The notes beneath the pieces were generated by a model. It was not told where the DNA came from. It worked only from the letters and a program-made list of their open reading frames with translations, and did no database searches. Positions 3,638-61,403 of a DNA stretch of 64,000 bases are shown here, one piece after another. Position numbers and translations under genes: made by a program. How positions within the stretch are numbered: the stretch's first letter is position 1; each line of letters opens with the position of its first letter. Origin of the DNA: Pseudalkalibacillus salsuginis (GTDB lineage Bacteria; Bacillota; Bacilli; Bacillales; Fictibacillaceae); the NCBI RefSeq assembly GCF_021646685.1, contig NZ_JAKJHW010000009.1, positions 1 to 64,000 on the forward strand, in the 5' to 3' direction.

Positions 3638-5212
3638 TTAAATTACACCGATTTCCGGCCAGTGGAGTTCGATTCCTTGTTGGTGGAGGTGGGCTTGGAA
3701 GTCCTGTAATAGAGCGCTGTTGTGACGGACTGCCCTTGGTTCGACGCCTTTTTCGTGAGCGAAGGCAGCCAGATAACCGGCGGATTCACCGATGTTCCAT
3801 TCGACAGGATGGACTCGGAAGCAGCCGTTCGTAATATGGGTCGCACCGATGTTTTTACTTCCGGTGATGAGATTCTTCATTCGGATAGGCAGCAGCGTCC
3901 CGAGCGGGATTTCGAAAGGGAGGCTAGGTGTATAGAACAGCTGTTTGGTGACAATCGTCGGATGAAGATCGATCCGGTAACAGCCGACACCTACTGAATC
4001 TTCAACCTTCTTGATTCCTTTATTACCACGGTACTCAGCATTGATATCTTGTTCCTTGACCGTCACCTCCGCCTTAATTCGGCGTGATTCACGGATATAA
4101 GGGTACATCGCGAGACCATCATTGGTTCCTGCAACATCCCTTCTCAAGCGTAATCCAGGATAACCAGTCCCTCCATCATGCCTCGGTGCTTCCACCTGCA
4201 TCCAATAAAGAAGGGACAAACTTAATTGCTTGGCTCCTTCCAAATGTGTCTGCCGTTCCTCTTCACTGACTTCATAGATCGGACCGAGCCAATAATCGTT
4301 TTGCGGCCAGTTGATCAAAGAAAGGTCACCGTCTGCAAAGCCGTCACGGAATAGCGTTTTATCAAGAGCCCTTCGATATTCCCAGAGTGAAAACAACCCT
4401 TGCTGTGGGAAAAGTGTGAATAACTTCGATTTTCCAGTCGCTGCATCTGGTCCGAACCAGCTTAATTGTTTATGATCCAAGAAATCCGCCTGATAGTTTT
4501 TCCAAAACTCATACTGCTCCGGTTTTTCGATGGTATGGTCTTCACCTTCGAGATAATCGACCGCAAAACAATGGGTGGTGGATTGCATATCAAGTGGTTC
4601 TGCCTTACCCTCCAATCCATGGGGCTCCCCGGTCTCTCCCTTTGACTCGGCCCCTGTCACATATTCAATACCCGCCAATGGCAGAAGATCCCCACATTCC
4701 GTTGCATCAATGAACAGCGACCCGCTTATCGTGACTTCACCTTCCACTTCTAAACCCCGGATTGTGACAGAACGTACCTTATCCCCACTCGTCTCTACAG
4801 CCACTGGTCGATACTCCAAAAGTACCGTGATCCTGCCAGTATGGATAAAGGGTGCCAGCATATCATTCAATACTGCCAGTGAGATTCTGGGGTCATGCGA
4901 GATCCGGCTTACGAGGGCGTTGCCTGGATTCAGCCTTGGATTGTTCCTGGCCGCTTCTTTCAACGGATAATTCCGGCGATAATAGTCCCGGACACGGTTG
5001 CGGAACGCACGGTAAGTACCTGTGCATCCAAATTGTTCGATCCATTTATGTTCATCAGGCGGGACGAGTTGACTCGTCAGCTGACCACCGATCCGGCCCG
5101 TTTCCTCTGTCAGGATCACCTTCTTACCCATTTTGGCAGCAGATAGTGCGGCCATACTCCCGCCAAGTCCGCCCCCAATGACGATGATGTCACCATGCAA
5201 TTCTTTACTCAT
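3638..5212 (-). CDS. FAD-dependent oxidoreductase (FAD_oxidored type), last gene of glycan operon
   Basis: Predicted cytoplasmic flavoprotein of about 524 residues. The N-terminal Rossmann motif GGGLGGSMAALSAAKMG, about 10 residues in, binds the ADP part of FAD, followed by EETGRIGGQLTSQ. The family (PF12831-like) includes proteins annotated as FAD-dependent dehydrogenases and is common in carbohydrate clusters; its substrate is unknown. The start at 5212 is chosen because AAAGGAG lies about 8 bases upstream; an open reading to 5284 would run into the tandem repeat. It is the last of ten co-directional genes, so it may oxidise a sugar or sugar acid released by the locus, but that is inference. 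The 52-bp array separates it from the rest of the operon. Confidence 0.85.
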   Translation of the reverse strand: MSKELHGDIIVIGGGLGGSMAALSAAKMGKKVILTEETGRIGGQLTSQLVPPDEHKWIEQFGCTGTYRAFRNRVRDYYRRNYPLKEAARNNPRLNPGNALVSRISHDPRISLAVLNDMLAPFIHTGRITVLLEYRPVAVETSGDKVRSVTIRGLEVEGEVTISGSLFIDATECGDLLPLAGIEYVTGAESKGETGEPHGLEGKAEPLDMQSTTHCFAVDYLEGEDHTIEKPEQYEFWKNYQADFLDHKQLSWFGPDAATGKSKLFTLFPQQGLFSLWEYRRALDKTLFRDGFADGDLSLINWPQNDYWLGPIYEVSEEERQTHLEGAKQLSLSLLYWMQVEAPRHDGGTGYPGLRLRRDVAGTNDGLAMYPYIRESRRIKAEVTVKEQDINAEYRGNKGIKKVEDSVGVGCYRIDLHPTIVTKQLFYTPSLPFEIPLGTLLPIRMKNLITGSKNIGATHITNGCFRVHPVEWNIGESAGYLAAFAHEKGVEPRAVRHNSALLQDFQAHLHQQGIELHWPEIGVI

Positions 5213-5281
5213 ATGATCGACTCCTTTAAAAATGGCTGTATGTACGCGGGACTTGATCAAAAGGTGCCAGCAAATCGGTTT

Positions 5282-5593
5282 CATGAGACCCTGAAAATGC
5301 GAAAATCTGAATTTGAGGTACTCATAAGAGTTTCATGAGACCCCGAAAACGCGAAAATCTGAATTTGAGGTAACCATAAAAGCTTCATGAGACCCTGAAA
5401 ATGCGAAAATCTGAATTTGAGGTACTCATAAAAGCTTCATGAGACCCTGAAAACGCGAAAATCTGAATTTGAGGTACTCATAAAAGCTTCATGAGACCCT
5501 GAAAACGCGAAAATCTGAATTCGGGGTACCCATAAAAGCTTCATGAGACCCTGAAAATGCGAAAATCTGAATTTGGGGTACTCATAAGAGCTT
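5282..5593. repeat. Tandem array, six 52-bp units
   Basis: Units begin with CATGAGACC at 5282, 5334, 5386, 5438, 5490 and 5542, exactly 52 bases apart, with only a few substitutions between units and no length change. The unit has an AT-rich core (GCGAAAATCTGAATT) and, across unit junctions, a potential hairpin of GGT-CTCAT against ATGAG-ACC with one bulge each side. The array lies between two genes of the same operon and is probably transcribed. The 52-base period is not a multiple of three, and no credible protein crosses it. Confidence 0.95.
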
Positions 5594-5602
5594 GTTTCAT
5601 GA

Positions 5603-5632
5603 TTCGGGCTGACCACCATGAGCCAGCCCGAA
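5603..5632 (-). terminator. Stem-loop after the GHL10 gene
   Basis: A perfect 9-bp stem, TTCGGGCTG with CAGCCCGAA, has a 12-base loop and begins 7 bases after the GHL10 stop. No good U tract follows on the minus strand, so it may be an mRNA-stabilising or attenuating hairpin instead of a full terminator. Confidence 0.5.
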
Positions 5633-5638
5633 ATCTAG

Positions 5639-7306
5639 TTATTTATTATCTCTGACCATCTTCAACAAACCTGGGATCTGGTGAGGCGGTTTGGACTCTT
5701 CTGCAAATTCCTCCTCGATGATGTCCCACCAGCCAAACTGTTCAAAATAGACGAGGTCGAACAGCATGATTCCATGTGTCCTTTCCATAACTGCTCTCAA
5801 GCCTCTACGAAACTGTTCTGGATCTCCTTTGTATTGATTCAGATACAAGCTTCCATAGACAAAGGTCGCTTCATTCACGACATCGAAAGCGATATCAGCT
5901 GACCCCTCAACGCTATACCAATCAGGATTTCCCGAAGCAATCCCTTCCTCACGTGTAACATCCCTGAAGTAGTTCCCCGTCATAAGGAAGTCGAGTACTT
6001 CAGCATACCCTGTTTTTCCGTAGTCAGGGCTCGCCCAATCATAATCCGGCTGGTGGGTCCTGCTTGCCCAGTTCACGCCTTCACTATAGTAGAGCGGATA
6101 CCAAGCTCCGACATACGTACTGAAAAACAGGGAGGAATCCTTCTCATGGACGAGCTGCTCAGCCTGTTTGAAGAAGTCCTGGATGTTGCCTGCTCTCCAC
6201 TCGATCCACTTTTGGTAATGCGGTCCTGGAATCCGTTCTTGTCCTTCCTCAGTGAATTCCACTCTGAAAATGTCCTCTGGCCAGTTTTCTACGGTTTCAC
6301 CGATATAGTCTTCGAACTGCTCACGGCTCAAGTCACTGAAATCAGCGTTGATGTTCGAATAACGGGCCCGGTCAAGGACAATCCCGTCTACATCATAGTT
6401 GCTGATAATTTCATCGATGATGCTTAACTCATAATTCCGGACGTCCTCACGGATCGGATTGGTGAACGTTGAAAATGAAGGGTATTCCGATGCAGGGACC
6501 AATTCTGTCTTTGATGCGGAGTAATCAAGTTCATCCCCAACCTTAACGTTCTCAAGGATCCATGTTCTCGCTTCCCCGTGACCTGATAGGACAACGCCAT
6601 CATCCGGCACTTCAACAGCTGGAGCTCTATATGTACGGTCGATTACTTCCGTTACAACTCCATCTGTGATCTGGACTTCGGCTCCCCATTGGTTTGCAGG
6701 GGAAACATCATATTTTGCTGGTGTATACATGACCAATTGGTTTGAACCTCTTGTCGTGTTCACTCCGGTAATATCAAAGGTTTCTCCATTTGCGGCCTCT
6801 GCGATCCGGGAAGCCATATAGAACGTTGTCTGCCATTGTGGATTTTCAAAGGCTGGACCGTCTTTATAGTCGTTGTTTCCTTCAGAGAAAACATTGACGT
6901 TCGCATGAACCTGGATATCAAACTTATGGGCTTCCTTTATCACTTCCGTAAGCAAGTCATACCCCTCAGGGAACTCGTGGTAATTCGTAATCTTGGATGT
7001 GCTCATGTGCGGGGCGATCTTACTCAAATAACCAACAAAACCTGTGTAATTCTTTACATCTAGGATGATCGTATCAATGTTTGCTCTGGCGGTTTTCTCT
7101 ACGATGTTCTTCACTTTTTCCGGGGTATTCAAGTTTTGGATATTGGCTGAAAGGTCATACCATAAAATCCTCGCTTTCTTGTCATCTTCATTTACGAGGT
7201 CTTGAAGTGCTTGATGCCTTGATTTGTCATTTCCTGTTGCAGTCGCCGGTATAACAAGGCTCATCACCAGGACAACGGACAGTAGAATACCGAAAAGTTT
7301 TTTCAT
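5639..7306 (-). CDS. Secreted GHL10-type glycoside hydrolase-like protein (YngK-like)
   Basis: 555-residue exported protein. The N-terminus MKKLFGILLSVVLVMSLVIP, then ATA, is a signal peptide. The body starts with ARILWYDLSANIQNLNTPEKV and continues with TIILDVKNYTGFVGY and DGIVLDRARYSNINADFSDLS, the TIM-barrel pattern of the glycosyl-hydrolase-like 10 family (PF02638), to which B. subtilis YngK belongs. Family activity is poorly defined; a retaining glycosidase acting on glycan outside the cell is the usual assumption. Candidate acidic residues are the Asp of VLDRAR and acidic residues of later strands. It lies 103 bases after the DUF4127 gene, with GGAGG just before its ATG. It probably feeds the ABC importer of this operon. 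Confidence 0.8.
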   Translation of the reverse strand: MKKLFGILLSVVLVMSLVIPATATGNDKSRHQALQDLVNEDDKKARILWYDLSANIQNLNTPEKVKNIVEKTARANIDTIILDVKNYTGFVGYLSKIAPHMSTSKITNYHEFPEGYDLLTEVIKEAHKFDIQVHANVNVFSEGNNDYKDGPAFENPQWQTTFYMASRIAEAANGETFDITGVNTTRGSNQLVMYTPAKYDVSPANQWGAEVQITDGVVTEVIDRTYRAPAVEVPDDGVVLSGHGEARTWILENVKVGDELDYSASKTELVPASEYPSFSTFTNPIREDVRNYELSIIDEIISNYDVDGIVLDRARYSNINADFSDLSREQFEDYIGETVENWPEDIFRVEFTEEGQERIPGPHYQKWIEWRAGNIQDFFKQAEQLVHEKDSSLFFSTYVGAWYPLYYSEGVNWASRTHQPDYDWASPDYGKTGYAEVLDFLMTGNYFRDVTREEGIASGNPDWYSVEGSADIAFDVVNEATFVYGSLYLNQYKGDPEQFRRGLRAVMERTHGIMLFDLVYFEQFGWWDIIEEEFAEESKPPHQIPGLLKMVRDNK

Positions 7307-7409
7307 CTAATCCCTCCGAAAATTCAATTGAACAAGCCGCAGTGATAAAAGTGACAGGAATGTTCAGATGTCGAGCAACGTACCACCTCCTTAAAAAACT
7401 TGATTAGGT

Positions 7410-8933
7410 TTAATCCCTCTCCAGACAAATACTCAGGCCGATTTCAAACGTACGATTCCAGGGCAGATCAATGTTTTGGATGTTGAGCTTGTATTCACCC
7501 CATTGAGGCATCTCCTCTAAAGCTTTCATAAACTGTCTACGAACTACTTCGAGGAGCTCTTGTTCATCCACCCCCGCTTCATCCACTTGCTCCCTCACAG
7601 TTTGACGGACGACAGATTGATAGAGATAGTCGTCTAAAAACCGATGAATCAACACTCCCATATGCCTCTTTTTAAACTCCGATTCCAGTAGAAATCCTTT
7701 CCGTTTATGTAGATGAACCATTGCAGAATGGGCAATGACCGTCCCGAGCGAATTTCCTGCTGTATTCCAGCCAGCATAACCGGAAAGCATTCCGAAAAAA
7801 CCCGATTCCAGCAACCTCGGCATAAGGGCTGGATCCGATCCGTTGGCATAAGCAAGATCAGCGACCGCTACATCTTTCCCTTCTCCAAGGTAGTGTTTGA
7901 TCCTCAACATCCATTCCCCTAGATTCCGATCGTTTGTGTCGACTTCGGCTAGATCCATTTGCAGAGCAAGATCTCCCTGTTTTTTCCCTGGTACATTGAC
8001 AGCTAGTAAAATATCCGCTTCAGATGGGGTTTCTACTGTAAACGAACCGAAAGCGTAGACTTGTCCTTTGACAGATTCATAGATCGGCCTGTCTTCATAT
8101 CTAGCGGGAGTGAGTGCGCCTTTTTGCCCACTGAAAAAAGGTTGATAGATCGGCTTCACTACGTTTTCCAACTCATAGATCATCCTGGCGACCAATGTAC
8201 TTGCCACCTCGTCTGCACCTGGATAGATGAAAACTTTCTCAAATAAACGCCGTTTGCTGACTTCCTCTGATAACCATTCCTGCTCCTGGATATTCATCCC
8301 GTACTCCGCTGTATCATCTTGAGGGAAAACCAGAATATCGAATAACCCCTCTTCCACATCATCCAGCAGAGAACGGTTGATCGAAAAATTCCGATCTCTC
8401 GTATTTTGGTAATCTCGTAAAATGACATCCGGTATCTTCAGCCTCAACTCCTCTACCCTCTTCATGGAGATAGGATCCTTCGTTTTCGAATGACAGTGGG
8501 TGTGATACGAAAATTGCCAGATTTCTTTTCCGTAACGGTTCCAGTACTCCTTCTCCTCTTCATTCACGTATGAATCGGAAAGTCGCATCGTGGCACTGAA
8601 CCCCATGATTTTCAGCTCTGGTTTTGCCTCTTTCAGATCTTTTAAAACTTGAATGCGTTCACGGACCTGTTCTACAGTAGCCTCTGAAATTCGTGAAGGG
8701 ACTAACCCTCCATAACCGAGCATATCAATCGAGACGACAATCCCGTCGACTTTATCTGCTGTTTCCTTCAACCAGTCTTGGAGGCTGTCAAGACTGCCGG
8801 GTTCTTTCAAAAAACCGAGTTCGTTACGTTCCGGTACGAGAACCTCCCATCCACCGATCGCGGCGAGTTGTCTTGGCAGGTCTCTCGTAACAGGTCTTCC
8901 GTCGACTGGAAGCAATGCTATTTTTCGTTTCAT
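7410..8933 (-). CDS. DUF4127 family protein
   Basis: 507-residue cytoplasmic protein without a signal peptide. The start MKRKIALLPVDGRPVTRDLP and the segments DGIVVSIDMLGYGGLVPSR and FPQDDTAEYG match DUF4127 (PF13552), a family of unknown biochemical function. The ATG at 8933 has GGAG 5 bases upstream; a longer reading to 8972 is unlikely. Family members recur next to sugar ABC transporters, so an enzyme that cleaves or modifies the imported sugar is plausible. The conserved Asp/Tyr/Gly-rich SIDMLGYGGL segment and the later AYANGSDPALMPRLL segment are candidate active-site loops. It lies directly after the two permease genes. Confidence 0.8.
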   Translation of the reverse strand: MKRKIALLPVDGRPVTRDLPRQLAAIGGWEVLVPERNELGFLKEPGSLDSLQDWLKETADKVDGIVVSIDMLGYGGLVPSRISEATVEQVRERIQVLKDLKEAKPELKIMGFSATMRLSDSYVNEEEKEYWNRYGKEIWQFSYHTHCHSKTKDPISMKRVEELRLKIPDVILRDYQNTRDRNFSINRSLLDDVEEGLFDILVFPQDDTAEYGMNIQEQEWLSEEVSKRRLFEKVFIYPGADEVASTLVARMIYELENVVKPIYQPFFSGQKGALTPARYEDRPIYESVKGQVYAFGSFTVETPSEADILLAVNVPGKKQGDLALQMDLAEVDTNDRNLGEWMLRIKHYLGEGKDVAVADLAYANGSDPALMPRLLESGFFGMLSGYAGWNTAGNSLGTVIAHSAMVHLHKRKGFLLESEFKKRHMGVLIHRFLDDYLYQSVVRQTVREQVDEAGVDEQELLEVVRRQFMKALEEMPQWGEYKLNIQNIDLPWNRTFEIGLSICLERD

Positions 8934-8974
8934 CGCTACTCCTATCCTTTCTCTCAAAAAAGTTGACAGCACCC

Positions 8975-9871
8975 TTATCCTTTTACGGCCCCACTAGTTG
9001 CCCCTTTGATGAAGTAGCGCTGGAGGATGAGGAAGAAAATGATGATCGGCAATACCGAAATGACAGATCCTGCAGCAATCAGCCTCCAGTCTGCGGAAAA
9101 CAGCCCGGTGAGCGCATTCAGTCCTAATGGCAGGGTGTACATTTTCTGATCATCGAGAATGATCAACGGCCACAGGAAATCCCCCCATGCCATCACGAAC
9201 GTAAAAATGGCAAGCGTGACCACTGAAGGTTTTACAAGTGGTAGCAGGATCCTCCACCAGATTTGGAAGCTGTTCGCTCCATCCATCCGTGCCGATTCGT
9301 CGAGCTCATATGGGATTGTGATGAAGGCCTGGCGCATCAAAAATATTCCGAATGCGGTCGTCGCGTGTGGCAGGATCAACCCTGCATAGGTGTTCTTCAA
9401 CCCAAGATCGAGGGACAGGATATAGATCGGGATCATCAACAGCTGGAATGGAATCATCATCGTACTGATGATGAGAATAAAAATGATGTTTTTCCCTTTG
9501 AAATTCATCCTTGCAAGCGGGTAAGCTGCAAAGGAACAGAACAGGACATTGAGCAGGACCGTAAAAAAGCCGACGATCGTACTGTTCATCAAATAGGTCC
9601 AGAAAGGAAAAGCATCCATGACTCTAGAAAAGTTGCCTAGCGTCGGGCTTTCCGGAATGAACTTTGGTGGATAACTGAAAATATTTTCATGCCCTGATTT
9701 CAATGCCGTCGAAAGGAGCCATAAAAATGGACCGAGCATTCCGAGTGCCACGATGATCAAAAGCAAATAGACCAAGATTTTCTTGAGCAGGACTTTTGTT
9801 TTAATGTTCATCATTGGACGTGTTTGAACAGTGATCGGTCGATGTTTCTTTCCGGTAACAGGCGTTTCCAC
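8975..9871 (-). CDS. Sugar ABC transporter permease, MalG/AraQ type
   Basis: 298-residue inner-membrane permease with six predicted membrane spans. The ABC-coupling EAA loop is seen as ELDESARMDGANSFQIWWR near residue 190, followed by ILLPLVKP. The start is a GTG at 9871 with GGGGAG 5 bases upstream. With its partner permease and the lipoprotein encoded at 13311-14585 it forms a CUT1-type importer for oligosaccharides. There is no ATPase gene in the operon; a shared MsmX-type ATPase is expected. Confidence 0.92.
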   Translation of the reverse strand: METPVTGKKHRPITVQTRPMMNIKTKVLLKKILVYLLLIIVALGMLGPFLWLLSTALKSGHENIFSYPPKFIPESPTLGNFSRVMDAFPFWTYLMNSTIVGFFTVLLNVLFCSFAAYPLARMNFKGKNIIFILIISTMMIPFQLLMIPIYILSLDLGLKNTYAGLILPHATTAFGIFLMRQAFITIPYELDESARMDGANSFQIWWRILLPLVKPSVVTLAIFTFVMAWGDFLWPLIILDDQKMYTLPLGLNALTGLFSADWRLIAAGSVISVLPIIIFFLILQRYFIKGATSGAVKG

Positions 9872-9884
9872 TTTTTCTCCCCCC

Positions 9885-10754
9885 TTATGCTACGTTTTCT
9901 TTTTTGCCCATCAGTTTCAAATTGACGATCGAAAAGATGAGCGTAATGAGAAAGAGTACAACTCCGGCAGCACTGGCATACCCCATGTTCAGTTTTTCAA
10001 ATGCCTCTTGATAGATATAGAACACGAGCGTTTTCGAACTGTTCAACGGGCCGCCGCCAGTCATGATATAGATCTCTTCAAACACTTTCATGGCTGCAAT
10101 CGACGACATCACCGTCACAATGATAATGGATGGCATCAGCATCGGAATCGTGATACGGATCGTCTGTTGCCACTTGTTCGCCCCATCGATCTCTGCCGCT
10201 TCGTATAAATTTGAGGGAATGGATTGAAGGCCAGCCAGGTAGATGACCATGTAATACCCCAATCCCTTCCAGACCGTCACCGCCATGACCGCGAAAAGTG
10301 CCGTCTTTTCAGAGGTGAGCCAGTGGACAGAACCGTTGATCAGCCCGACGACTTCCAGCAAGTAGTTGAGGACGCCTTTTTCCGCATAGACCCACTCCCA
10401 TGTGATCCCAACGACAACCCAGGAGGTGACAACCGGTATGTAATAGGCTGACCGGAAAAAACCGATACCTTTCAGCTTTTGGTTGACCAGGATTGCAAGG
10501 AAGATCGGTAAAATGATAAGAGCGGGGACGACTCCAACAAGATAAATCAGTGTCTGAATGAGCGTCTTCCAAAACATACCGTCTTCAAAAAGCCGTTGAT
10601 AGTTTTCCGTACCGGTGAAGGCCGGGTCGGTGATCATATTATAGTCTGTAAAACTTAACCATATTGCTTGCAGCAACGGATAAAAAATGAAAGCCCCCAG
10701 AATTACACAACCAGGCAGCAAAAACAAATAGGGTGTCAAAACGTTCTGTTTCAC
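9885..10754 (-). CDS. Sugar ABC transporter permease, MalF/UgpA type
   Basis: 289-residue membrane permease. It begins TPYLFLLPGCVILGAFIFYP, as is typical for the MalF side of CUT1 importers. The EAA loop is seen as NLYEAAEIDGANKWQQTIRIT near residue 190. The GTG start at 10754 overlaps the ROK stop by four bases (GTGA), which indicates translational coupling; the MalG-type gene follows 13 bases after its stop. The substrate is probably an amino-sugar oligosaccharide, from operon content. Confidence 0.92.
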   Translation of the reverse strand: MKQNVLTPYLFLLPGCVILGAFIFYPLLQAIWLSFTDYNMITDPAFTGTENYQRLFEDGMFWKTLIQTLIYLVGVVPALIILPIFLAILVNQKLKGIGFFRSAYYIPVVTSWVVVGITWEWVYAEKGVLNYLLEVVGLINGSVHWLTSEKTALFAVMAVTVWKGLGYYMVIYLAGLQSIPSNLYEAAEIDGANKWQQTIRITIPMLMPSIIIVTVMSSIAAMKVFEEIYIMTGGGPLNSSKTLVFYIYQEAFEKLNMGYASAAGVVLFLITLIFSIVNLKLMGKKENVA

Positions 10755-11656
10755 ACCTCTCCCCCCTTACTCATTGCATCGAATAACAGCTTGACTGCTC
10801 CGATCATGCCAGCTTTGTTTCCGAGAGCCGCTGGGAGAACATCCAGGTTGACATCCTTTCCTGTCAGTTTTTCTATTAACACATCCCACCATTGATCCTT
10901 CGATTCGATTACCCCGCCACCAATGATGACTGCTTCGGGATCGATGCTTACGGAAAGGTTATAGACGACAAGTGCCAGATCATCAAGATACCTCTCAACG
11001 ATCGGCTGGATTTTTCGGTCGCCAGCCTGGAACGCCTCAAAGAGATCTGCGCCATTTGTGTAGGTTCTTCCAGACTGTCCATTAGCGGTTTTCACTAAAG
11101 CTGTACCGGATAAATATTGTTCGATGCATCCTCTATTTCCACAGTTACACGCACGTCCCTCAGGATAAAGGATGACGTGTCCCCATTCACCGCCGTTCCA
11201 AAGATTACCCCGGAAGATTTTCCGACGGATCATATTCGCACCGCCTACACCCGTGCCAAGCGTCAGGAAGGTTACTGAGTCATAGATCTCCCCTCTATTC
11301 CACCATTCACCTGCCAGTGCTGCATTCGCATCATTATCAATAAAGGCAGGAAGTGCGTATGTATTGGTGATGAACTCACGCAGGTTGATGCCTTGCCAGC
11401 CAGGAAGATTGGCCGTACTATAAATGACCTTGCCACGATCTACGTCGACTCTGCCTGCGGTGCCGATCCCGATTCCCATGATTTCCGTTTCGTTTTCAAG
11501 CAGTTGATCGATCGTTGTTGTCAAGGTTGCCAGGATACCGTTTCGGCCTTCGGATCTATTGGTTTGTATGGTGACCTGATGATGAATCTTTCTTTTTTCG
11601 TCAACAATAGCCCCTTTGATTGTGGTACCGCCTATATCGATTCCGATCGCTTTCAT
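10751..11656 (-). CDS. nanK: ROK-family sugar kinase (putative N-acetylmannosamine kinase)
   Basis: 301-residue ROK kinase. The phosphate-binding motif GIDIGGTTIKG lies at the N-terminus, the catalytic Asp in IDNDANAALAGEWW, and the zinc motif is complete: GHVILYPEGRACNCGNRGCIEQYLSG supplies one His and three Cys across the GRACNCG and GC parts. ROK kinases phosphorylate glucose, ManNAc or GlcNAc. Adjacency to nanE suggests that it makes ManNAc-6-phosphate for the epimerase, but glucokinase activity cannot be excluded. It lies 12 bases after the RpiR regulator gene. Confidence 0.88.
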   Translation of the reverse strand: MKAIGIDIGGTTIKGAIVDEKRKIHHQVTIQTNRSEGRNGILATLTTTIDQLLENETEIMGIGIGTAGRVDVDRGKVIYSTANLPGWQGINLREFITNTYALPAFIDNDANAALAGEWWNRGEIYDSVTFLTLGTGVGGANMIRRKIFRGNLWNGGEWGHVILYPEGRACNCGNRGCIEQYLSGTALVKTANGQSGRTYTNGADLFEAFQAGDRKIQPIVERYLDDLALVVYNLSVSIDPEAVIIGGGVIESKDQWWDVLIEKLTGKDVNLDVLPAALGNKAGMIGAVKLLFDAMSKGGEV

Positions 11657-11668
11657 CGTTTCACCATC

Positions 11669-12523
11669 TTAATAGATCTTATTGACAACCGATTGTGCCG
11701 TCTTTTCTTTCATTTCCAATGCCACATCCTTATGCTTGAGGGCAAGCCCTGTACATAAAAGGTCGATGACGAACAGCTGGGAGATCTTTGCAGCAAGGGA
11801 ACTCCCTTCAAGAGGCGATTCTTTCCCCCCGTTAATGAGCACAGCATCAGCAATTCTGGTGATTGGTGATCTTGCATGGTAAGTGACCGCGATCGTTTTC
11901 GCACCATTTTCTTTCGCGATTTTCAACGAATCGATCGTGTCTTTCGTACTGCCCGAAACTGTAATTCCGATGACGAGATCATTTCCAGAAAGGGTAGCAG
12001 CCGTCATCGACTGGATGTGCGGATCAATCACCGCGTCTACTCTCCTGCCTATTCTGAGGAAACGGTTCTTGGCATCCAGGGCGGTCAATCCAGAAGTCCC
12101 GACACCGAAAAAGTGTACGGAAGATGCATGATCGATCATGTCAATCGCTTTATTGATCGCCTCCTCACTATTCATGGACACTGTTTCGTGAATCGCATTG
12201 ATCGTGTAGGAAGAAATCATTGTAAATAAATCATTTTGAACAGGTGACCCCGGTTCTTCCCCTGCCTTGTTCGCCAAATCCTTGGCGATCGCCAGCTTGA
12301 ACTCCTGATAGCCTTTCAGACCGATTTTCCGGCAAAAACGGAGTACGGTCGTTTCCCCGACTTCTGCTGCATCTGCAAGATCGGTCACAGAATAATAGAT
12401 CACCTGATCAAGCTGCTGCACGACGATATCTGCAACTTTCTGCTCTGATTTGGTAAGGGAAGGAAAGTAACTGTTAATCAACCCTTTTATATTTCCTGTC
12501 TGATTCACCTGTTTCACTGTCAT
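11669..12523 (-). CDS. MurR/RpiR-family transcriptional regulator
   Basis: About 284 residues. An N-terminal RpiR helix-turn-helix (LTKSEQKVADIVVQQ, then VGETTVLRFCRKIGLKGYQEFK) is followed by a SIS domain (SVHFFGVGTSGLTALDAKNR, then GNDLVIGITVSGSTKDT) that binds a phosphosugar. The ATG at 12523 is preferred because AAGG lies 8 bases upstream; the ATG at 12529 would be too close. The gene overlaps nanE by about 50 bases in another frame. It is expected to control this operon in response to ManNAc-6-P or GlcNAc-6-P. A candidate operator is listed at 15383-15401. Confidence 0.9.
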   Translation of the reverse strand: MTVKQVNQTGNIKGLINSYFPSLTKSEQKVADIVVQQLDQVIYYSVTDLADAAEVGETTVLRFCRKIGLKGYQEFKLAIAKDLANKAGEEPGSPVQNDLFTMISSYTINAIHETVSMNSEEAINKAIDMIDHASSVHFFGVGTSGLTALDAKNRFLRIGRRVDAVIDPHIQSMTAATLSGNDLVIGITVSGSTKDTIDSLKIAKENGAKTIAVTYHARSPITRIADAVLINGGKESPLEGSSLAAKISQLFVIDLLCTGLALKHKDVALEMKEKTAQSVVNKIY

Positions 12524-13217
12524 CCGCATTGCCTTCTTTCTTTATAAAATCAGTGTATCTTCTCGTGATTTCTTGAGGTCTGGTGATGGCAGAACCGACG
12601 ACGACACAATGTGCCCCAAGTCGAAGAGCTTGCCGTGCATCCTCTGGCGAATGGTATTTTCCTTCTGCGAACACTGGAATCGCAAATCGTTTCGCCAATC
12701 GTTCCACCAGTTGGAAATCCGGTCCTTTCAAGGGCGGAGAATAGGTTGTATAGCCTGACAACGTGGTCGATATGCAGTCCGCTCCAACAGCCGCTGCCCT
12801 CACACCTTCTTCATACGTTGAAACATCAGCCATCACCAGTTTTTTATGACTGTGGATCAACTTGATCAATTGTTCAATTTCTTGTCCCCTTGGGCGTTCT
12901 CTCATTGTGGAATCGATCGCAATGATGTCAACATCCACTCTTATCAATTCCTCAACTTCATCGCAAGTAGGGGTGATGTATATTTCACTGTCTGGATACG
13001 ATTTTTTCACTAAACCGATGATGGGAAGGTTGATCAATTTTTTAATTTCAAGGATATCTTCAGTGCCATTAGCCCTGATCCCTACAGCACCTCCGATTTG
13101 CGCGGCTTTTGCCATCTTCGCCATCATTTCTGATCCATGGAGCGGCTCATCCTCAAGCGCCTGGCAGGAGACGATCAACCCTCCTTTTAACTGTTGAAAT
13201 ACCGTTAATGGTTCCAT
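12474..13217 (-). CDS. nanE: N-acetylmannosamine-6-phosphate 2-epimerase
   Basis: About 247 residues, TIM-barrel NanE family: interconverts ManNAc-6-P and GlcNAc-6-P. Diagnostic segments are LKGGLIVSCQALEDEPLH, GAVGIRANGTEDI, IIAIDSTMRERPRG, MADVSTYEEG, CISTTLSGYT and FAEGKYHSPEDA. The last 18 residues (after FIKKEG) are a family-atypical extension caused by the frame overlap with the regulator gene. The ATG at 13217 gives the usual NanE N-terminus; the Shine-Dalgarno is weak and a GTG at 13235 is possible. The product GlcNAc-6-P would need NagA and NagB, which are encoded by the second sugar locus near 48 kb. Confidence 0.93.
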   Translation of the reverse strand: MEPLTVFQQLKGGLIVSCQALEDEPLHGSEMMAKMAKAAQIGGAVGIRANGTEDILEIKKLINLPIIGLVKKSYPDSEIYITPTCDEVEELIRVDVDIIAIDSTMRERPRGQEIEQLIKLIHSHKKLVMADVSTYEEGVRAAAVGADCISTTLSGYTTYSPPLKGPDFQLVERLAKRFAIPVFAEGKYHSPEDARQALRLGAHCVVVGSAITRPQEITRRYTDFIKKEGNADDSETGESDRKYKRVD

Positions 13218-13277
13218 CTCTCTACATATCACCACTCTTTAAATCTTTTTGTCAGACATTGAATTGTTGAAAAATGA

Positions 13278-13301
13278 GAAAGGGGAAAGAGATCCCCTTC
13301 G
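13278..13301 (-). terminator. Stem-loop between binding-protein gene and nanE
   Basis: AAGGGGA and TCCCCTT form a 7-bp stem with a 6-base loop just after the binding-protein stop, followed on the minus strand by a T-rich stretch. Stem-loops here commonly raise the level of the binding protein over the downstream enzymes. Confidence 0.5.
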
Positions 13302-13310
13302 CATTCTTCC

Positions 13311-14585
13311 TTATTGAGAGAGGATCTCGTTCCACTCAGCTTCAGCCTGTTTTACTGCTTCTTCTGGAGTCATTTTTCCGAGCATGGCAGCATGTAAAGC
13401 TTCATTGATTGATGTTTTCAGCTCTTCATAATTTTCCATAGGTGGCACTAATACTTCACTTTCCTTCAATTGCTCTGCAGACACGATTCTAGCTTCATCG
13501 ATCGGGGTAGGATCCTCAGGAAGCTCGTTGAAATATGGATCCTCTAACGCACTTTCGATTGACGGGAGGATTGGGACGATCTTATCGAATTCAACCTGGT
13601 TTTCAGCATTGGTCATGAAAAGAGAGAACTTGACTGCTTCCTCTTGATGTTCACTTTGTATTGGTACGACGAGATTCATTGCCGCTGTATTCTTTTTGCC
13701 TGATGCTCCAGTGATCTGTGGGCCGGATTTAGTCGCTTTCAATATTTCAGGCGCATTCTCTTCAACTTTGTTCAGAAATTGAGGTCCAGAGGCTAATATT
13801 GCAAGCTGGCCAGCCTGATACATATCAATCGCCTTTCCGTGACCTTCTGTCAGAACTTCTCGAGGAATCAAGTCGTTTTGATATAGGTCGACGAAGAATT
13901 CGAACGCCTTGATTCCTTGTGGCGTATTGAAAGCCGCTTTTGTCATATCCTCATTCGTCAGGTCCACATCCATCATGACAAGGGTTTCAAGTAAGTGGCT
14001 GGCATCAAGTGGTGGGAAGAAAGCATACTTTCCTGTTTCTTCTTTAATGGTTTTAGCTGTATCTTTCAACTCTTCAAAGGTTTTAGGAGGTGAATCAGGA
14101 TCAAGTCCCGCCTCTTTAAAAATGTCTGTGTTATACATCGTCACTTGTGAAGAGAGATACCAGGGAATGCCGAACGTTTTATCATTGAATGTGTTCGATT
14201 TCCATACCCCTTCGAAATACTTATTTTGTGTCTCTTCATCTACCATCTCGTCCATATTCACCAAGGCGTCCAATTCTGCTAGTTTAGAAGCGAATTGTGG
14301 GTTGAGGTTCGCGACATCAGGTGCGGTCTTGGAAGCGACTGCCGCTAATATTTTTTTCTCCATATCTGCCCACGGGACATCAACCCATTTTACTTTGATA
14401 TCCGGATTTTCTTTTTCGAAGTCTGAGATGACTCCGTTGATGTAATCATCGAACGTAGGCGAAAGCTGCATAGTCCAGAACTCTAGTTCAACCTGTTCAT
14501 CATTCGTCGTTTCAGCACTTTTACAACCTGATAAAAAAAGAGCTGTAACCATCAAAATGGACAAAAACAATGAAAACTTTTTCAT
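13311..14585 (-). CDS. Sugar ABC transporter substrate-binding lipoprotein
   Basis: 424-residue extracellular solute-binding protein, family 1 (MalE-like). The signal sequence ends in the lipobox LFLSGC, so the mature protein is anchored at Cys21. The N-lobe begins ELEFWTMQLSPTFDDYINGV, with the typical PDIKVKWVDVPW strand. It is close in type to the binding protein at 61449-62735, which shares the PW/PG-D KWVDVP signature, so the two may recognise related ligands. A 13-base gap separates it from the upstream esterase gene, so both are probably cotranscribed. Confidence 0.93.
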   Translation of the reverse strand: MKKFSLFLSILMVTALFLSGCKSAETTNDEQVELEFWTMQLSPTFDDYINGVISDFEKENPDIKVKWVDVPWADMEKKILAAVASKTAPDVANLNPQFASKLAELDALVNMDEMVDEETQNKYFEGVWKSNTFNDKTFGIPWYLSSQVTMYNTDIFKEAGLDPDSPPKTFEELKDTAKTIKEETGKYAFFPPLDASHLLETLVMMDVDLTNEDMTKAAFNTPQGIKAFEFFVDLYQNDLIPREVLTEGHGKAIDMYQAGQLAILASGPQFLNKVEENAPEILKATKSGPQITGASGKKNTAAMNLVVPIQSEHQEEAVKFSLFMTNAENQVEFDKIVPILPSIESALEDPYFNELPEDPTPIDEARIVSAEQLKESEVLVPPMENYEELKTSINEALHAAMLGKMTPEEAVKQAEAEWNEILSQ

Positions 14586-14598
14586 AAAATCCCCCTCT

Positions 14599-15336
14599 TT
14601 ACAATTCGTTTTGGGCGAAGTAGGTCAACGCCCTTTTCAGATCTTCTTTCCAAAAACGCCAAAGATGGCCTTCGTTTTCTTCAAAGTATGTAAGGCTGGT
14701 TTTTGCATAGCGGAAAGCATTGACCAGCTTTCGATTGTTCGTGGTGATGTCAAGTATCTTTCCACTGATTTGGGATTGAAAGCCATCTTCATGTTTTCCG
14801 TACACTTGATAAACGTACCAATTTTCTCTAGGAGTCTCTTCTACTTCCCCTATCATTGGTGTATCGATCGCGGTGGATTGGAGCAAAAGGTGCGTCCAGA
14901 CGGATGGATGTTGAAGTGCAATCGCCAAACTGACAGTAGCGCCGAGGGAATCACCGAGCAGACCCATTTTCTTTATGTGTTTTCCTTGTTGGATAAAATG
15001 GTTTCGGATGAATGGAAGTAATTCTTGGTGGAAAAATTGGAGATATTGTTTGTGGTATTCACCTTCTGGATGGTAAAACTGATAACGTTCATGTGAGGTT
15101 CCTGGTGGAATAAGGATCATGGTAATGTTGCTGAACTGATTTTGATTTTGGTTGAGCAGATCCGTAAACTGTTCTTTCAGGTGCCCTAACTGTAAGTAAT
15201 CCTCCCCGTCTTGCACGAACAACAGACTGCAATCATCCCCTTCCGTATTGAAGAGGTCCGAGGACAGAAAAGTCACTTTTTGTTCCCTATCCAGCACACT
15301 GCTGGGAAGTACAACTTCCTCTAAAGCAACCTCCAT
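14599..15336 (-). CDS. Putative esterase (PF00756-like), first gene of the operon
   Basis: About 245-residue alpha/beta hydrolase of the Fes/enterochelin-esterase-like family. The nucleophile elbow is GDSLGA, and a late His in NEGHLWRFW fits the triad. There is no signal peptide, so it acts in the cytoplasm. The ATG at 15336 has GGGAGGGG 4-5 bases upstream; a longer reading to 15468 would enter the repeat. As the operon's first gene it may remove O-acyl groups from the imported sugar, in line with family members that deacylate sugars; this is inference. Confidence 0.78.
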   Translation of the reverse strand: MEVALEEVVLPSSVLDREQKVTFLSSDLFNTEGDDCSLLFVQDGEDYLQLGHLKEQFTDLLNQNQNQFSNITMILIPPGTSHERYQFYHPEGEYHKQYLQFFHQELLPFIRNHFIQQGKHIKKMGLLGDSLGATVSLAIALQHPSVWTHLLLQSTAIDTPMIGEVEETPRENWYVYQVYGKHEDGFQSQISGKILDITTNNRKLVNAFRYAKTSLTYFEENEGHLWRFWKEDLKRALTYFAQNEL

Positions 15337-15364: not shown

Positions 15365-15393
15365 ATAATACCATGAATTTTCAGAAATATGAA
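15365..15393 (-). promoter_or_regulatory. Promoter of the esterase-nanE-FAD operon
   Basis: On the minus strand, -35 TTCATA (15393-15388), a 17-base spacer, and an extended -10 TGGTATTAT (hexamer 15370-15365) lie about 30 bases upstream of the esterase start. Confidence 0.55.
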
Positions 15394-15401: not shown

Positions 15402-15454
15402 CTAAAATTAAGTAAAAAGGCGGATATAATCTCCAAAACGGATGCGTTGTTTCT

Positions 15455-15562
15455 GGTGCCTGGTACACTTTGAAAAGCGTTGGGGGAGAAGAGATTTAAA
15501 ACGGTGCCAGGCACCATCTGAGTAGCCTTGGGCGCAAGGGATTGGAGATGGTGCCTGGCACC
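15455..15562. repeat. GTGCC(A/T)GGCAC palindromic repeat, copy 2
   Basis: Cores are at 15455, 15503 and 15550. The last two form a hairpin with 17-bp perfect arms (GGTGCCAGGCACCATCT and its complement), with CCTTG/CAAGG at the tip. The copy is nearly identical to 3453-3561. Confidence 0.9.
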
Positions 15563-46517: not shown

Positions 46518-47276
46518 TTACAACTTTTTGATCTTCCCTTTGAACTGATCAATGAATCGGGCGTTCCATTCATCTCCACCAGTTGCATTTCCACTCATCC
46601 AGATAGGCGGCTTTATCCCTTCTTCAACCAGCATATTTATTGCTTCCGTAGCCATTGCATTCAAAAGAAATGAGTTTGCGAATGTAGAAACAGCTGCAAC
46701 TTTTTGTTCTAACCCCTCTATATCGATGATGGCATCTCCCACACCGACCTTACTGTCCAATACGACATCGACTAAGTCATGTAGGTTTTTCTTAGAAGGA
46801 TGGCGGGCAGGATGATCACCCGGTGTATTGATGGCGTGCTCCACAGATGTCACTCCAATCGTTTTCACTCCTAACTTCTCAGCCTCCAGAGCGGCATCAA
46901 TGACAGCGGAATTGATTCCATAGGCATTGATGATAATTAATAAATCATCTTTTTTTAAGTTATAATCATTGATTACAATCTTTCCATATCCCGGTGTCCT
47001 TTCTATTGACATGGATCGTAACGCACCGCTGCTCAATAGTGTACCTTCGTCCAATATTGCACTGATGTGCATCAACCCTCCTGCCCGGAAAAACAATTCT
47101 TGTGACCCTAGATTCGAATGCCCACCCGGGCCATAGGCAAATACTAATTTGTCTTTTTTTATTTGAGAAGCGATCAATTCTGCAGCTTTATGAATATTGG
47201 CCAACTCTTCGTCATGTAACCGATTCAGATGCTCCGTGACTTTAGATAGATATTGTCCTGTTAATGTAGATGTCAT
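46518..47276 (-). CDS. SIS-domain protein, UPF0309-like
   Basis: 252-residue sugar isomerase-domain protein. It has AYGPGGHSNLGSQELFFRAG and LIIINAYGINSAVIDAALEA, the UPF0309 pattern. Members are found with NagA homologues and are presumed phosphosugar isomerases or binding proteins. The ATG at 47276 overlaps the nagA-like stop (ATGA) and has GGAG 7 bases upstream. Confidence 0.82.
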   Translation of the reverse strand: MTSTLTGQYLSKVTEHLNRLHDEELANIHKAAELIASQIKKDKLVFAYGPGGHSNLGSQELFFRAGGLMHISAILDEGTLLSSGALRSMSIERTPGYGKIVINDYNLKKDDLLIIINAYGINSAVIDAALEAEKLGVKTIGVTSVEHAINTPGDHPARHPSKKNLHDLVDVVLDSKVGVGDAIIDIEGLEQKVAAVSTFANSFLLNAMATEAINMLVEEGIKPPIWMSGNATGGDEWNARFIDQFKGKIKKL

Positions 47277-48445
47277 TTTTCCACTCCTGATTGGTTTTTT
47301 ATTGAAACACACTTTCCCCTCTTATAAGTTTCAAGTAATTCAATTCCAGAACTTTTAGTATAGTTAAATAAAATAAAATCAGCGTATGAATCGACTTCGA
47401 GTTTATAACCAGATAATCTGAGCCATTCAGCAGGATTTACCGTTGCCATGTCAATCACATCAGCAAGTTCACATAGGCCCTGTTTCAGAAGATGGTTGAT
47501 CCCCCATATCTGAGATTGGGCTGACCCTGCCAGGAGGTCTGGATTACTGGCCATATGAAGTTTCCCTTTTTTAGTCAAAACAACTTTTCCACCGATGTGC
47601 ATGTTGTACTCTCCAGGCTCCATTCCCCCTAGCGAAACACTGTCACTTACTACGATTGCGCGTTTCCCTTTCATTCTTATAATCGTTTTCAGAACAGCAT
47701 CGGGCAAATGAAACCCATCCGCGATAAAAGTCGCCGCTAATCCATCATTCGCAAGCTGTTCCCAAATATAATTGGGATGGCGGGGTAGCATCAAATGAGC
47801 ACCATTTCCAAGATGGGTTGATAATTTAGCACCAGCTGAAATAGCAGCCCTGATTTGTGCTGGCGTTGCTGAAGTATGACCTATCGAGACGATGATTCCG
47901 TTCTCGGTACATGTTTTGATGAAGACCTCGGAATCATCCCACTCTGGTGAAATAGTCAAAAGTTTCAACCTGCCGCCTGAAGCTTTTTGCCATTTACTTA
48001 CTAGTGACCAATCCGGAGGACTGACAAACTTAGCATCATGTGCTCCTCTTGGCCCATCTTCTGGTGAAATGAAGGGGCCTTCCAAATGAACTCCTGCAAT
48101 GGAATCATCCATGTATGGGAAACGTGTACACACCTGTTTTATCGTTTCCATCGCTTCTTCAATTTTCTCAGGACTGTTTGTGATGATTGTTGGAAAGTAG
48201 GAGGTGACCCCTTCTTTCCATAACTCCCTGGTTATTTTCAAAATATCAGATTCTTTGAGCGGGAGAGTGTTGAAATCTACTCCTTTATAACCGTTGATTT
48301 GTAAATCAATCAGTCCAGGGGCGATATATGGTAAAGTTTCATTGTTGGATCTTTGGATTGTGGTCAATTTAGTAAACTTTCCGTCCCGACAGTCAATTTC
48401 CAGTCGTTCACCTGTACTATAATGGATGGCTTTTAATTTACTCAT
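47273..48445 (-). CDS. nagA: NagA-like N-acetyl-amino-sugar-6-phosphate deacetylase
   Basis: 390-residue amidohydrolase. It keeps HLEGPFISPEDGPRGAHD, the metal His of SIGHTSATPAQ and the DSVSLGGMEPG loop carrying the catalytic Asp. The usual THLFNAM motif is replaced by THLGNGAHLMLPRHPN, so it belongs to a divergent branch that may prefer a sugar other than GlcNAc-6-P (GalNAc-6-P, AgaA-like, is the best guess). It lies 2 bases after the NagB-like gene and overlaps the SIS gene. Confidence 0.85.
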   Translation of the reverse strand: MSKLKAIHYSTGERLEIDCRDGKFTKLTTIQRSNNETLPYIAPGLIDLQINGYKGVDFNTLPLKESDILKITRELWKEGVTSYFPTIITNSPEKIEEAMETIKQVCTRFPYMDDSIAGVHLEGPFISPEDGPRGAHDAKFVSPPDWSLVSKWQKASGGRLKLLTISPEWDDSEVFIKTCTENGIIVSIGHTSATPAQIRAAISAGAKLSTHLGNGAHLMLPRHPNYIWEQLANDGLAATFIADGFHLPDAVLKTIIRMKGKRAIVVSDSVSLGGMEPGEYNMHIGGKVVLTKKGKLHMASNPDLLAGSAQSQIWGINHLLKQGLCELADVIDMATVNPAEWLRLSGYKLEVDSYADFILFNYTKSSGIELLETYKRGKCVSIKNQSGVEK

Positions 48446-48447
48446 TC

Positions 48448-49221
48448 CTAGTGATTTCCTCCGCAGGACTCCTTATCTAAATATAATGTACAGTTAGGAT
48501 GATTTCTCAATATAGTAGCTGGCCAATTTGTCGTAATAGGTCCATCCAATACATGTCGGACTGCACTAGCTTTCGTTTTACCTGGAACGACACAATACAA
48601 GAATTCTCCTGAAAGTAAGGCCGGTATGGTAAGTGTGATCGCTTTTTCGGGAACCTCTTCAATACTACTAAAACAACCGTCATTTACTTGTTGCTGCCTG
48701 CAAGCTTCGTCCAGGGTGACTGTCTTGACCGTCTCTTCATCTTCAAAATTTGCCACCGGGGGATCATTAAAAGCGAGATGACCATTTTCCCCGATTCCCA
48801 AACAAACGATATCAATCGGCTTTTCATTAAATAGAGATGCGTATCGTCTACATTCATGTTCACTTTCACTATTTCCATTTATCAAATGGACTTCTTTTGG
48901 TTTTACCAGATCAAATAACTTCGATAACAAGAAATTTCTGAAGGTTTGGGGAGCATTTTCCGCTAATCCGATATATTCGTCCATGTGGAATGCTACGATC
49001 CTTGCCCAATCAATGCCCTTATCTTGTACCAGGTACTGCAACACCTCATTTTGGGAAGGTGCAGCTGCAAATACCATTCTTATTTCATCTTTGTCTTGTA
49101 AAAGTTCTTTGATTTTTCGAGCAATTTGTTGCCCTGCATAATCACCAAGCGATTTTCTATCATTAAACGTTTTTACTGCCAAATGATCGACTTTATCGAC
49201 TTGCACCGGAGAAACTGACAT
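48448..49221 (-). CDS. nagB: Glucosamine-6-phosphate deaminase-like protein
   Basis: 257-residue NagB/SOL-family protein. Catalytic motifs are VAFHMDEYIGL (Asp/Glu) and CLGIGENGHLAFNDPP (His), with a C-terminal VVPGKTKASAVRHVLDGPI. It converts GlcN-6-P (or a GalN-6-P analogue, AgaI-like) to the ketose phosphate and ammonia. AAAGGAG precedes the ATG. It lies directly after the ceramidase-like gene. Confidence 0.87.
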   Translation of the reverse strand: MSVSPVQVDKVDHLAVKTFNDRKSLGDYAGQQIARKIKELLQDKDEIRMVFAAAPSQNEVLQYLVQDKGIDWARIVAFHMDEYIGLAENAPQTFRNFLLSKLFDLVKPKEVHLINGNSESEHECRRYASLFNEKPIDIVCLGIGENGHLAFNDPPVANFEDEETVKTVTLDEACRQQQVNDGCFSSIEEVPEKAITLTIPALLSGEFLYCVVPGKTKASAVRHVLDGPITTNWPATILRNHPNCTLYLDKESCGGNH

Positions 49222-49222
49222 T

Positions 49223-50527: not shown

Positions 50528-50783
50528 GCCAATCTACCTTTCTTTTTTTAATGGATCTGTTAAAGTTCATTGTACACCGGTAAGACATGCTAAAAAACGG
50601 GAATCGACCACCACACATAAAGGCTGAAACCATGTGTATATGTAAGACCTGCATAAGCAACAAAACACTGCACCACTATAGCCTGAGACATGACGGGAAA
50701 TCCCTGAAAGCCACCCAGGCATCTTTCCTCCCGCTACAAAAAAATCTTTGAACCTTTGACTTTTCCAAAAGACTAAAAACCGA

Positions 50784-50834
50784 TCACAATCTCAAGAAGA
50801 ACGCAATTAATACAATCCAATGAAGTGAATGCAT
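50784..50834 (-). CDS. Possible 16-residue hydrophobic leader peptide
   Basis: ATG at 50834 is preceded by the strong site AGGAGG at 6 bases, and the frame MHSLHWIVLIAFFLRL ends in TGA. It is the only translatable signal in the 377-base gap between the ROK kinase and the ceramidase-like gene. The rest of the gap (50535-50780) contains small palindromic stretches such as GGGAAATCCC and GCC-ACCCA-GGC but no recognisable riboswitch or gene. Confidence 0.4.
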   Translation of the reverse strand: MHSLHWIVLIAFFLRL

Positions 50835-50904
50835 AATGCTCCTCCTAATGATCATTAATTGGTCCTAGTCTATTACTATTTAATTTAAAAAAGATGTTTG
50901 AAAG

Positions 50905-51813: not shown

Positions 51814-51824
51814 AAGATCCGCTC

Positions 51825-52862: not shown

Positions 52863-52868
52863 TCTCGT

Positions 52869-53794: not shown

Positions 53795-53810
53795 ATGAAT
53801 TATGACCCTC

Positions 53811-54671: not shown

Positions 54672-54686
54672 ATCCGCACCTCCTGC

Positions 54687-55316: not shown

Positions 55317-55337
55317 CTACCCCTCCGTTTGAAGGAT

Positions 55338-56423: not shown

Positions 56424-56424
56424 T

Positions 56425-57441: not shown

Positions 57442-57477
57442 ATTAAACACCTGCTCTCTCTATAATCATTCTATTTT

Positions 57478-59583: not shown

Positions 59584-59593
59584 CTTATATCTC

Positions 59594-61365: not shown

Positions 61366-61403
61366 TCTATCGACTCCTTTCTAAGAACCTGGAAAAAAGA
61401 AGT

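Follow-up and report, generated by a model that had tools for sequence, protein, structure and literature searches.

Which compound feeds an operon that encodes NanE, the N-acetylmannosamine-6-phosphate (ManNAc-6-P) 2-epimerase, in a genome where no NanA-type sialate lyase was found? This question is raised by a 64,000-bp stretch of Pseudalkalibacillus salsuginis DNA (contig NZ_JAKJHW010000009.1, positions 1–64,000; hereafter the window). On its minus strand (15336–3638), the open reading frame (ORF) list and Pfam profiles identified a run of ten ORFs with recognizable families, in the order esterase, CUT1 binding protein, NanE, RpiR regulator, ROK kinase, two permeases, DUF4127 protein, GHL10-DUF4985 protein, and PF12831 flavin adenine dinucleotide (FAD) oxidoreductase. 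The ten co-directional genes named in an earlier reading of the window's letters alone (the original prediction) were thus borne out. We lean, with a little more than even confidence, toward the operon serving the catabolism of an exogenous, non-sialic amino-sugar compound, with exit through ManNAc-6-P to N-acetylglucosamine-6-phosphate (GlcNAc-6-P) and with the DUF4127 and FAD proteins preparing the sugar. The direct basis of this reading is the gene content, the co-conservation, the failure to find NanA, and the NanE active-site residues; the substrate and the roles of the DUF4127 and FAD proteins are its least certain parts. The cluster is real and conserved, its exit step is of a known kind, and it is apparently undescribed, no earlier description having been found in the literature searched. 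The features of the locus are as follows.

15365–15393, minus strand: candidate promoter (TTCATA-17-TATTAT, with TG before the second hexamer), 5′ of the esterase gene; consensus scan not above chance
14599–15336, minus strand: alpha/beta-hydrolase esterase (PF00756, E 4e-27; best NCBIfam model under its cut-off)
13311–14585, minus strand: CUT1 solute-binding lipoprotein (SBP_bac_1, E 1e-40; lipobox judged by eye)
13279–13300, minus strand: weak hairpin 3′ of the binding-protein gene (z -0.83)
12474–13235, minus strand: NanE, ManNAc-6-P 2-epimerase (Pfam E 6e-71; 317.7 bits against a cut-off of 189)
11669–12529, minus strand: RpiR-family regulator (HTH_6 and SIS domains; start uncertain)
10751–11656, minus strand: ROK sugar kinase (ROK, E 3e-61)
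9885–10754, minus strand: CUT1 permease 1 (BPD_transp_1)
8975–9871, minus strand: CUT1 permease 2 (BPD_transp_1)
7410–8933, minus strand: DUF4127 protein (PF13552, E 2e-144)
5639–7306, minus strand: GHL10 and DUF4985 in one protein with a signal-peptide-like N-terminus (DUF4985 E 1e-36, GHL10 E 7e-18)
5601–5635, minus strand: stable hairpin 3′ of the GHL10 gene, no T run (-21.8 kcal/mol, z -4.8)
5280–5593, minus strand: 52-bp tandem array of 6.0 copies in the GHL10-FAD spacer
3638–5212, minus strand: FAD-dependent oxidoreductase (PF12831; FAD_oxidored, E 5e-104)

Co-occurrence of NanE, DUF4127, and Their Partners

A fixed, even set of 398 genomes of the window's phylum was searched, in which a NanE match of at least 95 bits was regarded as clear. 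DUF4127 profiles matched 63 of the 398 genomes. NanE profiles matched 140, with at least 95 bits in 44; most of the matches were weak, and these are likely to be other TIM-barrel families such as IMP dehydrogenase. DUF4127 was present in 27 of the 44 genomes with a clear NanE vs. 36 of the 354 without one (hand count; Fisher odds ratio 14, p 1e-13, a value inflated by shared ancestry). Although NanE is commonly taken as a sialic acid marker, 11 of the 52 clear NanE genes in the sample (the window included) were located within 9 kb of DUF4127. The original prediction had named the conserved co-occurrence of DUF4127, GHL10, and NanE as its check, and it was found.

Ten linked NanE loci other than the window were compared with 41 unlinked ones, using profiles trained on loci that included the linked set, and four of the unlinked loci (L216, L247, L248, and L249) were short. 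The FAD family occurred in 9 of the 10 linked loci vs. 1 of the 41 unlinked (p 3e-8), and GHL10 of at least 100 bits in 6 vs. 0 (p 1e-5), with two weak unlinked matches at 76–77 bits. A gene of the dihydrodipicolinate synthase (DHDPS)/NanA family was present in none of the linked and five of the unlinked loci; ROK, RpiR, binding protein, and permease were each found in all ten linked loci. This indicated that NanE genes sit in at least two kinds of neighborhood, the window belonging to the DUF4127 kind, and the grouping is more than chance.

Distribution and Variation of Related Clusters

DUF4127 neighborhoods were examined in two sets. The unselected set consisted of 80 stretches from 60 genomes, drawn from the DUF4127 matches in the 398 genomes; the genomes G000, G084, and G251 were left out, as were certain second matches (e.g., G078:C20, G339:C5, and G174:C25). 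The named set consisted of the best 80 of 530 loci. By raw profile matches, NanE was present in 57 of the 80 named loci, a rate inflated because the query was an alignment of cluster-linked DUF4127, and in 10 of the 80 unselected ones, giving 67 of 160 neighborhoods; the gene-called version of the count was 52 and 9, respectively. The 67 NanE-plus loci included at least two double counts, since L144 overlaps L153, and L032 and L168, which agree in length and content, are apparently one contig.

Related clusters were found in Bacillota (Bacillaceae and relatives, Paenibacillaceae, Thermoanaerobacterium, and other Clostridia), in Betaproteobacteria (e.g., Roseateles, Massilia-type, and Rhodocyclaceae), in one Gammaproteobacteria metagenome-assembled genome (MAG), in Chloroflexota (Anaerolineae, Caldilineaceae), and in Acholeplasma granularum. 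The gene order was reshuffled between clades, whereas the content was kept. Among the 67 NanE-plus loci, binding protein was present in 62, permease in 62, ROK in 53, FAD in 49, RpiR in 46, GHL10 in 26, and esterase in 16; the corresponding numbers for the 93 NanE-minus loci were 24, 22, 10, 21, 4, 7, and 0. When the presence of NanE was mapped onto a tree of 159 DUF4127 proteins, 19 changes were required vs. 51.7 in shuffles, which suggested that the NanE-DUF4127 link was kept within clades and had arisen or disappeared on several occasions.

Judged from gene content, the core of the cluster is NanE, ROK, CUT1 importer, and DUF4127, in most cases accompanied by RpiR and FAD, and the glycosidase varies (GHL10, GH38, or GH84). 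A GntR/UTRA-type regulator was found in 7 loci, a GFO/IDH/MocA oxidoreductase in 11, and a xylose-isomerase-like barrel in 7; the MocA, xylose-isomerase-like, GH38, and GH84 clusters were each named from a single representative. Either the FAD or the MocA type was present in 54 of the 67 NanE-plus loci, so a redox step looks common but not universal. In L158 and L193, Glucosamine_iso and Amidohydro_1 genes, the expected final steps, adjoined the cluster.

NanE, Kinase, Importer, and Genome Context

The NanE of the window exceeded its subfamily cut-off. Six active-site residues have been published for the Staphylococcus aureus enzyme (PMC8482478), and all six were at matching places in the window protein when it was aligned to the Clostridium perfringens enzyme and mapped by eye. 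The ROK protein matched its family and scored below every specific cut-off, that is, below both N-acetylmannosamine (ManNAc) kinase models (138.6 vs. 283; 124.8 vs. 450) and below its top model, glucokinase (194.2 vs. 260.35). The regulator matched the RpiR family in both of its domains; the RpiR-type NanR proteins of Streptococcus pneumoniae and Vibrio vulnificus bind ManNAc-6-P (PMC12713135). As predicted, the CUT1 importer comprised a binding protein and two permeases, and none of the ten genes encodes an ATPase. A genome-wide search restricted to OB_MalK (PF17912) found a single MalK/MsmX-type ATPase, encoded on another contig, which fits an importer with a shared ATPase; we infer that this ATPase powers the importer of the operon.

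The genome, which is 99.63% complete, yielded no NanA-type lyase: six full-length DHDPS paralogues fell far under both NanA cut-offs (best scores 165 vs. 281 and 144.3 vs. 382), a test that covered these six; a seventh, weak DHDPS match of 25 bits lies in the window, and a lyase unrelated to NanA is conceivable. No DHDPS-family ORF was found in the 160 DUF4127 neighborhoods, whereas the identical profile found one in five other NanE loci. Sialic acid catabolism by the usual route is therefore unlikely and was rejected, as the original prediction had held in noting the lack of NanA.

The proposal that NagA and NagB would come from a second sugar locus of the window (46518–64000) failed. The paralogues there were under the cut-offs (208.6 vs. 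225.65; 145.5 vs. 236.9), and the NagA and NagB genes over their family cut-offs were neighbors on contig C7 (362.7 and 262.9 bits); supply from the second locus was thus rejected. That locus contains an AgaS/GlmD-like isomerase, a hexose kinase, and a tagatose/fructose-bisphosphate aldolase beside the NagA/NagB paralogues, and it looks like a different, galactosamine-type pathway on this gene content. It also has its own CUT1 importer and GH20C, GHL6/GH42M, ceramidase-like, and DHDPS-like proteins. The N-acetylmuramic acid (MurNAc)-6-phosphate etherase had a single over-cut-off match in the genome, on contig C15 (368 bits). No etherase was found in the operon; what matched in the window, at 37.9 bits, was the SIS domain of its RpiR regulator.

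Glycosidases and Esterases

The GHL10 domain of the window scored 65.2 bits against a cut-off of 27.9, in the sole GHL10 gene found in the genome. DigH is presumably a GHL10 protein, although the text cited for it does not use that name. The view that GHL10 has no settled activity is outdated, since Cwp19 (GHL10) is a lytic transglycosylase (PMC6016235) and DigH is described as hydrolyzing the denuded glycans of peptidoglycan (PMC12288456). By sequence, one significant relative of the window GHL10 was found in the PDB, namely Cwp19 (5oq2, E 1.2e-4).

A GHL10-DUF4985 protein with a signal-peptide-like start was found in the window, L117, L118, and L132, and as one of two in L125. On inspection, GHL10 proteins of ~400 residues without such a start were present in 14 loci; 17 were internal by length, one of them overlapping GH38 (L144), and L120 (a contig-edge piece), L138, and L144 (both with a hydrophobic N-terminus) were dropped by eye. 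Relatives without a signal peptide would be cytoplasmic. A GH38 alpha-mannosidase-like protein (nearest PDB entry 3lvt) was found in 16 loci in place of the internal GHL10, and a GH84-like protein in 6. After inspection, no locus contained both GH38 and an internal GHL10, so these two may do an equivalent job.

Acyl esterases were recurrent: Bacillaceae-type loci had PF00756, L035 had AXE1, and L160 had GDSL and alpha/beta-hydrolase genes. The recurrence of several esterase families hints at an O-acylated substrate. In L118 (3617–4375), the esterase gene was broken into two ORFs.

DUF4127 and the FAD-Dependent Oxidoreductase

The DUF4127 protein of the window matched its profile with 482.4 bits (cut-off 27) and was the sole DUF4127 match in the genome. 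Its structure was predicted with a predicted local distance difference test (pLDDT) score of 95.4 and a predicted template modeling (pTM) score of 0.94. Most of the invariant or near-invariant positions, namely D15, R17, D74, G79-G80, R121, D210-D211, D245-E246, D363, N368, D371, and W393-N394, fell at or just past strand ends in the model, a predicted placement like that of active-site residues in alpha/beta or barrel enzymes. Foldseek found weak, TIM-barrel-like resemblance to solved structures (best E 4e-4; template modeling (TM) score at most 0.31 among the matches listed), and phmmer found no DUF4127 relative among solved structures. Literature searches on DUF4127, PF13552, DUF4985, PF16373, DUF4434, DUF5696, and N-acetylmannosaminidase found no paper in the collection searched.

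The predicted structure of the FAD oxidoreductase was also confident (pLDDT 95.3). Foldseek ranked fumarate reductases, pyranose oxidase, and 3-ketosteroid dehydrogenase (TM at most 0.42 among the matches listed), and a sequence search found no close solved relative.

Three DUF4127 loci had unusual architectures. In L057 (288–2951), which lacks NanE, DUF4127 was fused to a GDSL domain and to the N-terminal domain of carbohydrate esterase 2. The DUF4127 protein of L107 (7051–9684) carried S-layer homology domains at its C-terminus; therefore, some DUF4127 proteins are probably located at the cell surface. L196 (4737–9324), from an Acholeplasmataceae MAG and without NanE, had three consecutive DUF4127 genes between GHL10 genes.

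Operon Organization and Transcription Signals

The short gaps or overlaps that had been claimed throughout were found at eight of the nine junctions, none of them exceeding 103 bp, and the claim did not hold for the GHL10-FAD junction of 426 bp. With the listed start codons, the esterase-binding protein gap was 13 bp and the binding protein-NanE gap 75 bp, the NanE and RpiR ORFs shared 56 bp, the RpiR-ROK gap was 12 bp, ROK and permease 1 overlapped by 4 bp, and the permease 1-permease 2 gap was 13 bp. The permease 2-DUF4127 gap was 41 bp with the DUF4127 start at ATG 8933, which was preferred over the listed GTG 8972 and is preceded by a ribosome-site-like stretch. The DUF4127-GHL10 gap was 103 bp, and the GHL10-FAD gap was taken with the FAD start at ATG 5212.

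The single upstream promoter of the original prediction did not stand out, as the consensus scan gave 20 sites vs. 21.2 in shuffles, with no excess. By eye, the sequence around the candidate promoter (15393–15365) showed good conservation in L117 and weak conservation in L119 and L122, and these conserved surroundings speak in favor of a start site before the esterase gene and of the candidate promoter. Upstream of the operon, at 15447–15560, a short palindromic repeat resembling GGTGCCTGGCACC occurred several times. The hairpin at 13279–13300 was not unusual, given its z value.

The 52-bp repeat of the GHL10-FAD spacer had no copy outside 5280–5593 in the genome in a search allowing up to two mismatches. 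L118 had an array of a similar unit with the same 52-bp period (9.9 copies, 13360–13873) in the same spacer; as in the window, the array was preceded by a strong hairpin located 3′ of the GHL10 stop codon. L117, a nearer relative than L118, had no array and a spacer of ~117 bp by our own count. A search for inverted repeats in the array of the window found none; the units of the L118 array had short inverted ends by eye.

Proposed Pathway and Alternative Explanations

In the proposed pathway, the secreted GHL10-DUF4985 enzyme would trim an outside glycan, and the CUT1 importer, probably with the cell's shared MalK/MsmX-type ATPase, would take up a small product. Inside the cell, the esterase may strip an acyl group, and DUF4127 and the FAD protein, to judge from their co-conservation, would act in consecutive steps through which ManNAc or a close relative is freed or formed; as a best guess, the flavoenzyme oxidizes the sugar ring and DUF4127 cleaves or rearranges it. 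The ROK kinase would phosphorylate ManNAc or the close relative, NanE would convert ManNAc-6-P to GlcNAc-6-P, and the NagA and NagB encoded on another contig would complete the route, with the RpiR protein presumably sensing ManNAc-6-P or a similar phosphosugar. Our leading guess for the source glycan is a ManNAc-bearing wall polymer or exopolysaccharide, because characterized GHL10 proteins cut peptidoglycan and esterases recur; other glycans are possible, given the GH38 and GH84 variants. DUF4127 is a credible candidate for a new enzyme family. More tentatively, and with some doubt, we suggest that DUF4127, as such a family, and the FAD protein form a new two-enzyme, perhaps oxidation-assisted route that frees ManNAc from a bacterial polysaccharide fragment or another ManNAc-bearing compound. 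No described enzyme for such chemistry was found in the literature searched. If the suggestion is true, this chemistry would lie in a fold poorly matched by any solved structure searched.

Several points weigh against the favored reading. The FAD gene of the window may be transcribed separately, given its 426-bp spacer with a hairpin and six 52-bp repeats; it is not obligatory, being absent in 18 of the 67 NanE-plus loci, and the FAD "family" mixes two types, that of the window (600–900 bits) and a shorter one (~300–415 bits). The ROK kinase was not assigned to ManNAc, and no solved structure fits DUF4127 well. Of the 27 genomes that have both genes, 16 carry NanE and DUF4127 on different contigs or at a distance from each other, as counted by hand. 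NanE was absent from 70 of the 80 unselected DUF4127 neighborhoods, so DUF4127 also serves elsewhere, and the inflated NanE rate of the named set belongs here as well.

ManNAc is present in wall polymers of Bacilli. It is conceivable, although we consider it rather unlikely, that the operon recycles peptidoglycan or the cell's own secondary wall polymer, GHL10 cutting it and the fragments re-entering through the importer; such a polymer would supply ManNAc for NanE, and the characterized GHL10 proteins do act on peptidoglycan. However, MurNAc recycling has a separate locus, with its etherase on C15, and GHL10 was absent in 41 of the 67 NanE-plus loci, in which its place may be taken by GH38 or GH84. 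The cluster was also found in Acholeplasma (L160), a genus without a cell wall, for which the source must be external. NanE and ROK acting on a sugar other than ManNAc, in the catabolism of another hexosamine or hexosamine glycoside, is less probable still: the fit of the ROK protein to glucokinase models is no worse than its fit to ManNAc kinase models, and the presence of GH38 and GH84 members is suggestive of a substrate with mannose or GlcNAc residues, but NanE passed its subfamily cut-off with its six active-site residues intact.

The customary sialic acid set of NanE, ROK, RpiR, and CUT1 importer would fit an operon whose lyase was lost or lies elsewhere, with DUF4127 and FAD acting on a modified sialic acid, and a DHDPS-family gene was indeed present in 5 of the 41 NanE loci without DUF4127. 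With the six paralogues far under the NanA cut-offs and no DHDPS-family ORF in any of the 160 neighborhoods, we regard this as quite improbable. That unrelated genes were thrown together in one lineage is scarcely credible: the repeat-bearing 426-bp spacer and the clade-dependent gene order might suggest it, but the content was kept across families and phyla while the order was reshuffled, and the Fisher test (p 1e-13) and the FAD contrast (9/10 linked vs. 1/41 unlinked NanE loci) led us to reject it. The catabolism of an exogenous, non-sialic amino-sugar compound remained the favored reading. For DUF4127, a family without an assigned function, the cluster provides a first context that can be tested, and it suggests a non-sialic source of ManNAc-6-P in bacteria of soil and sediment.

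Comparison with Known Systems

Among the titles and abstract openings listed for the literature on ManNAc gene clusters, no account of this cluster was found. One close likeness was to the sialic acid (nan) operons, which share NanE, a ROK kinase, an RpiR-type regulator, an ABC (ATP-binding cassette) importer, and the exit through GlcNAc-6-P. Unlike in those operons, no NanA-type lyase was found here in either the genome or the cluster, and DUF4127 and FAD are in its place; where nan operons have a sialidase, the related clusters have GHL10, GH38, or GH84. The peptidoglycan enzymes Cwp19 and DigH have the GHL10 domain in common with the window protein, which in contrast carries DUF4985 and sits in a transport operon, and many of its cluster relatives lack a signal peptide. 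With PF12831/GR2-type flavoproteins (fumarate reductase, 3-ketosteroid dehydrogenase, and pyranose oxidase), the oxidoreductase shares the FAD-binding fold, with weak similarity. The GH38 alpha-mannosidases of Bacilli represent a family that is found in 16 related clusters but not in the operon of the window.

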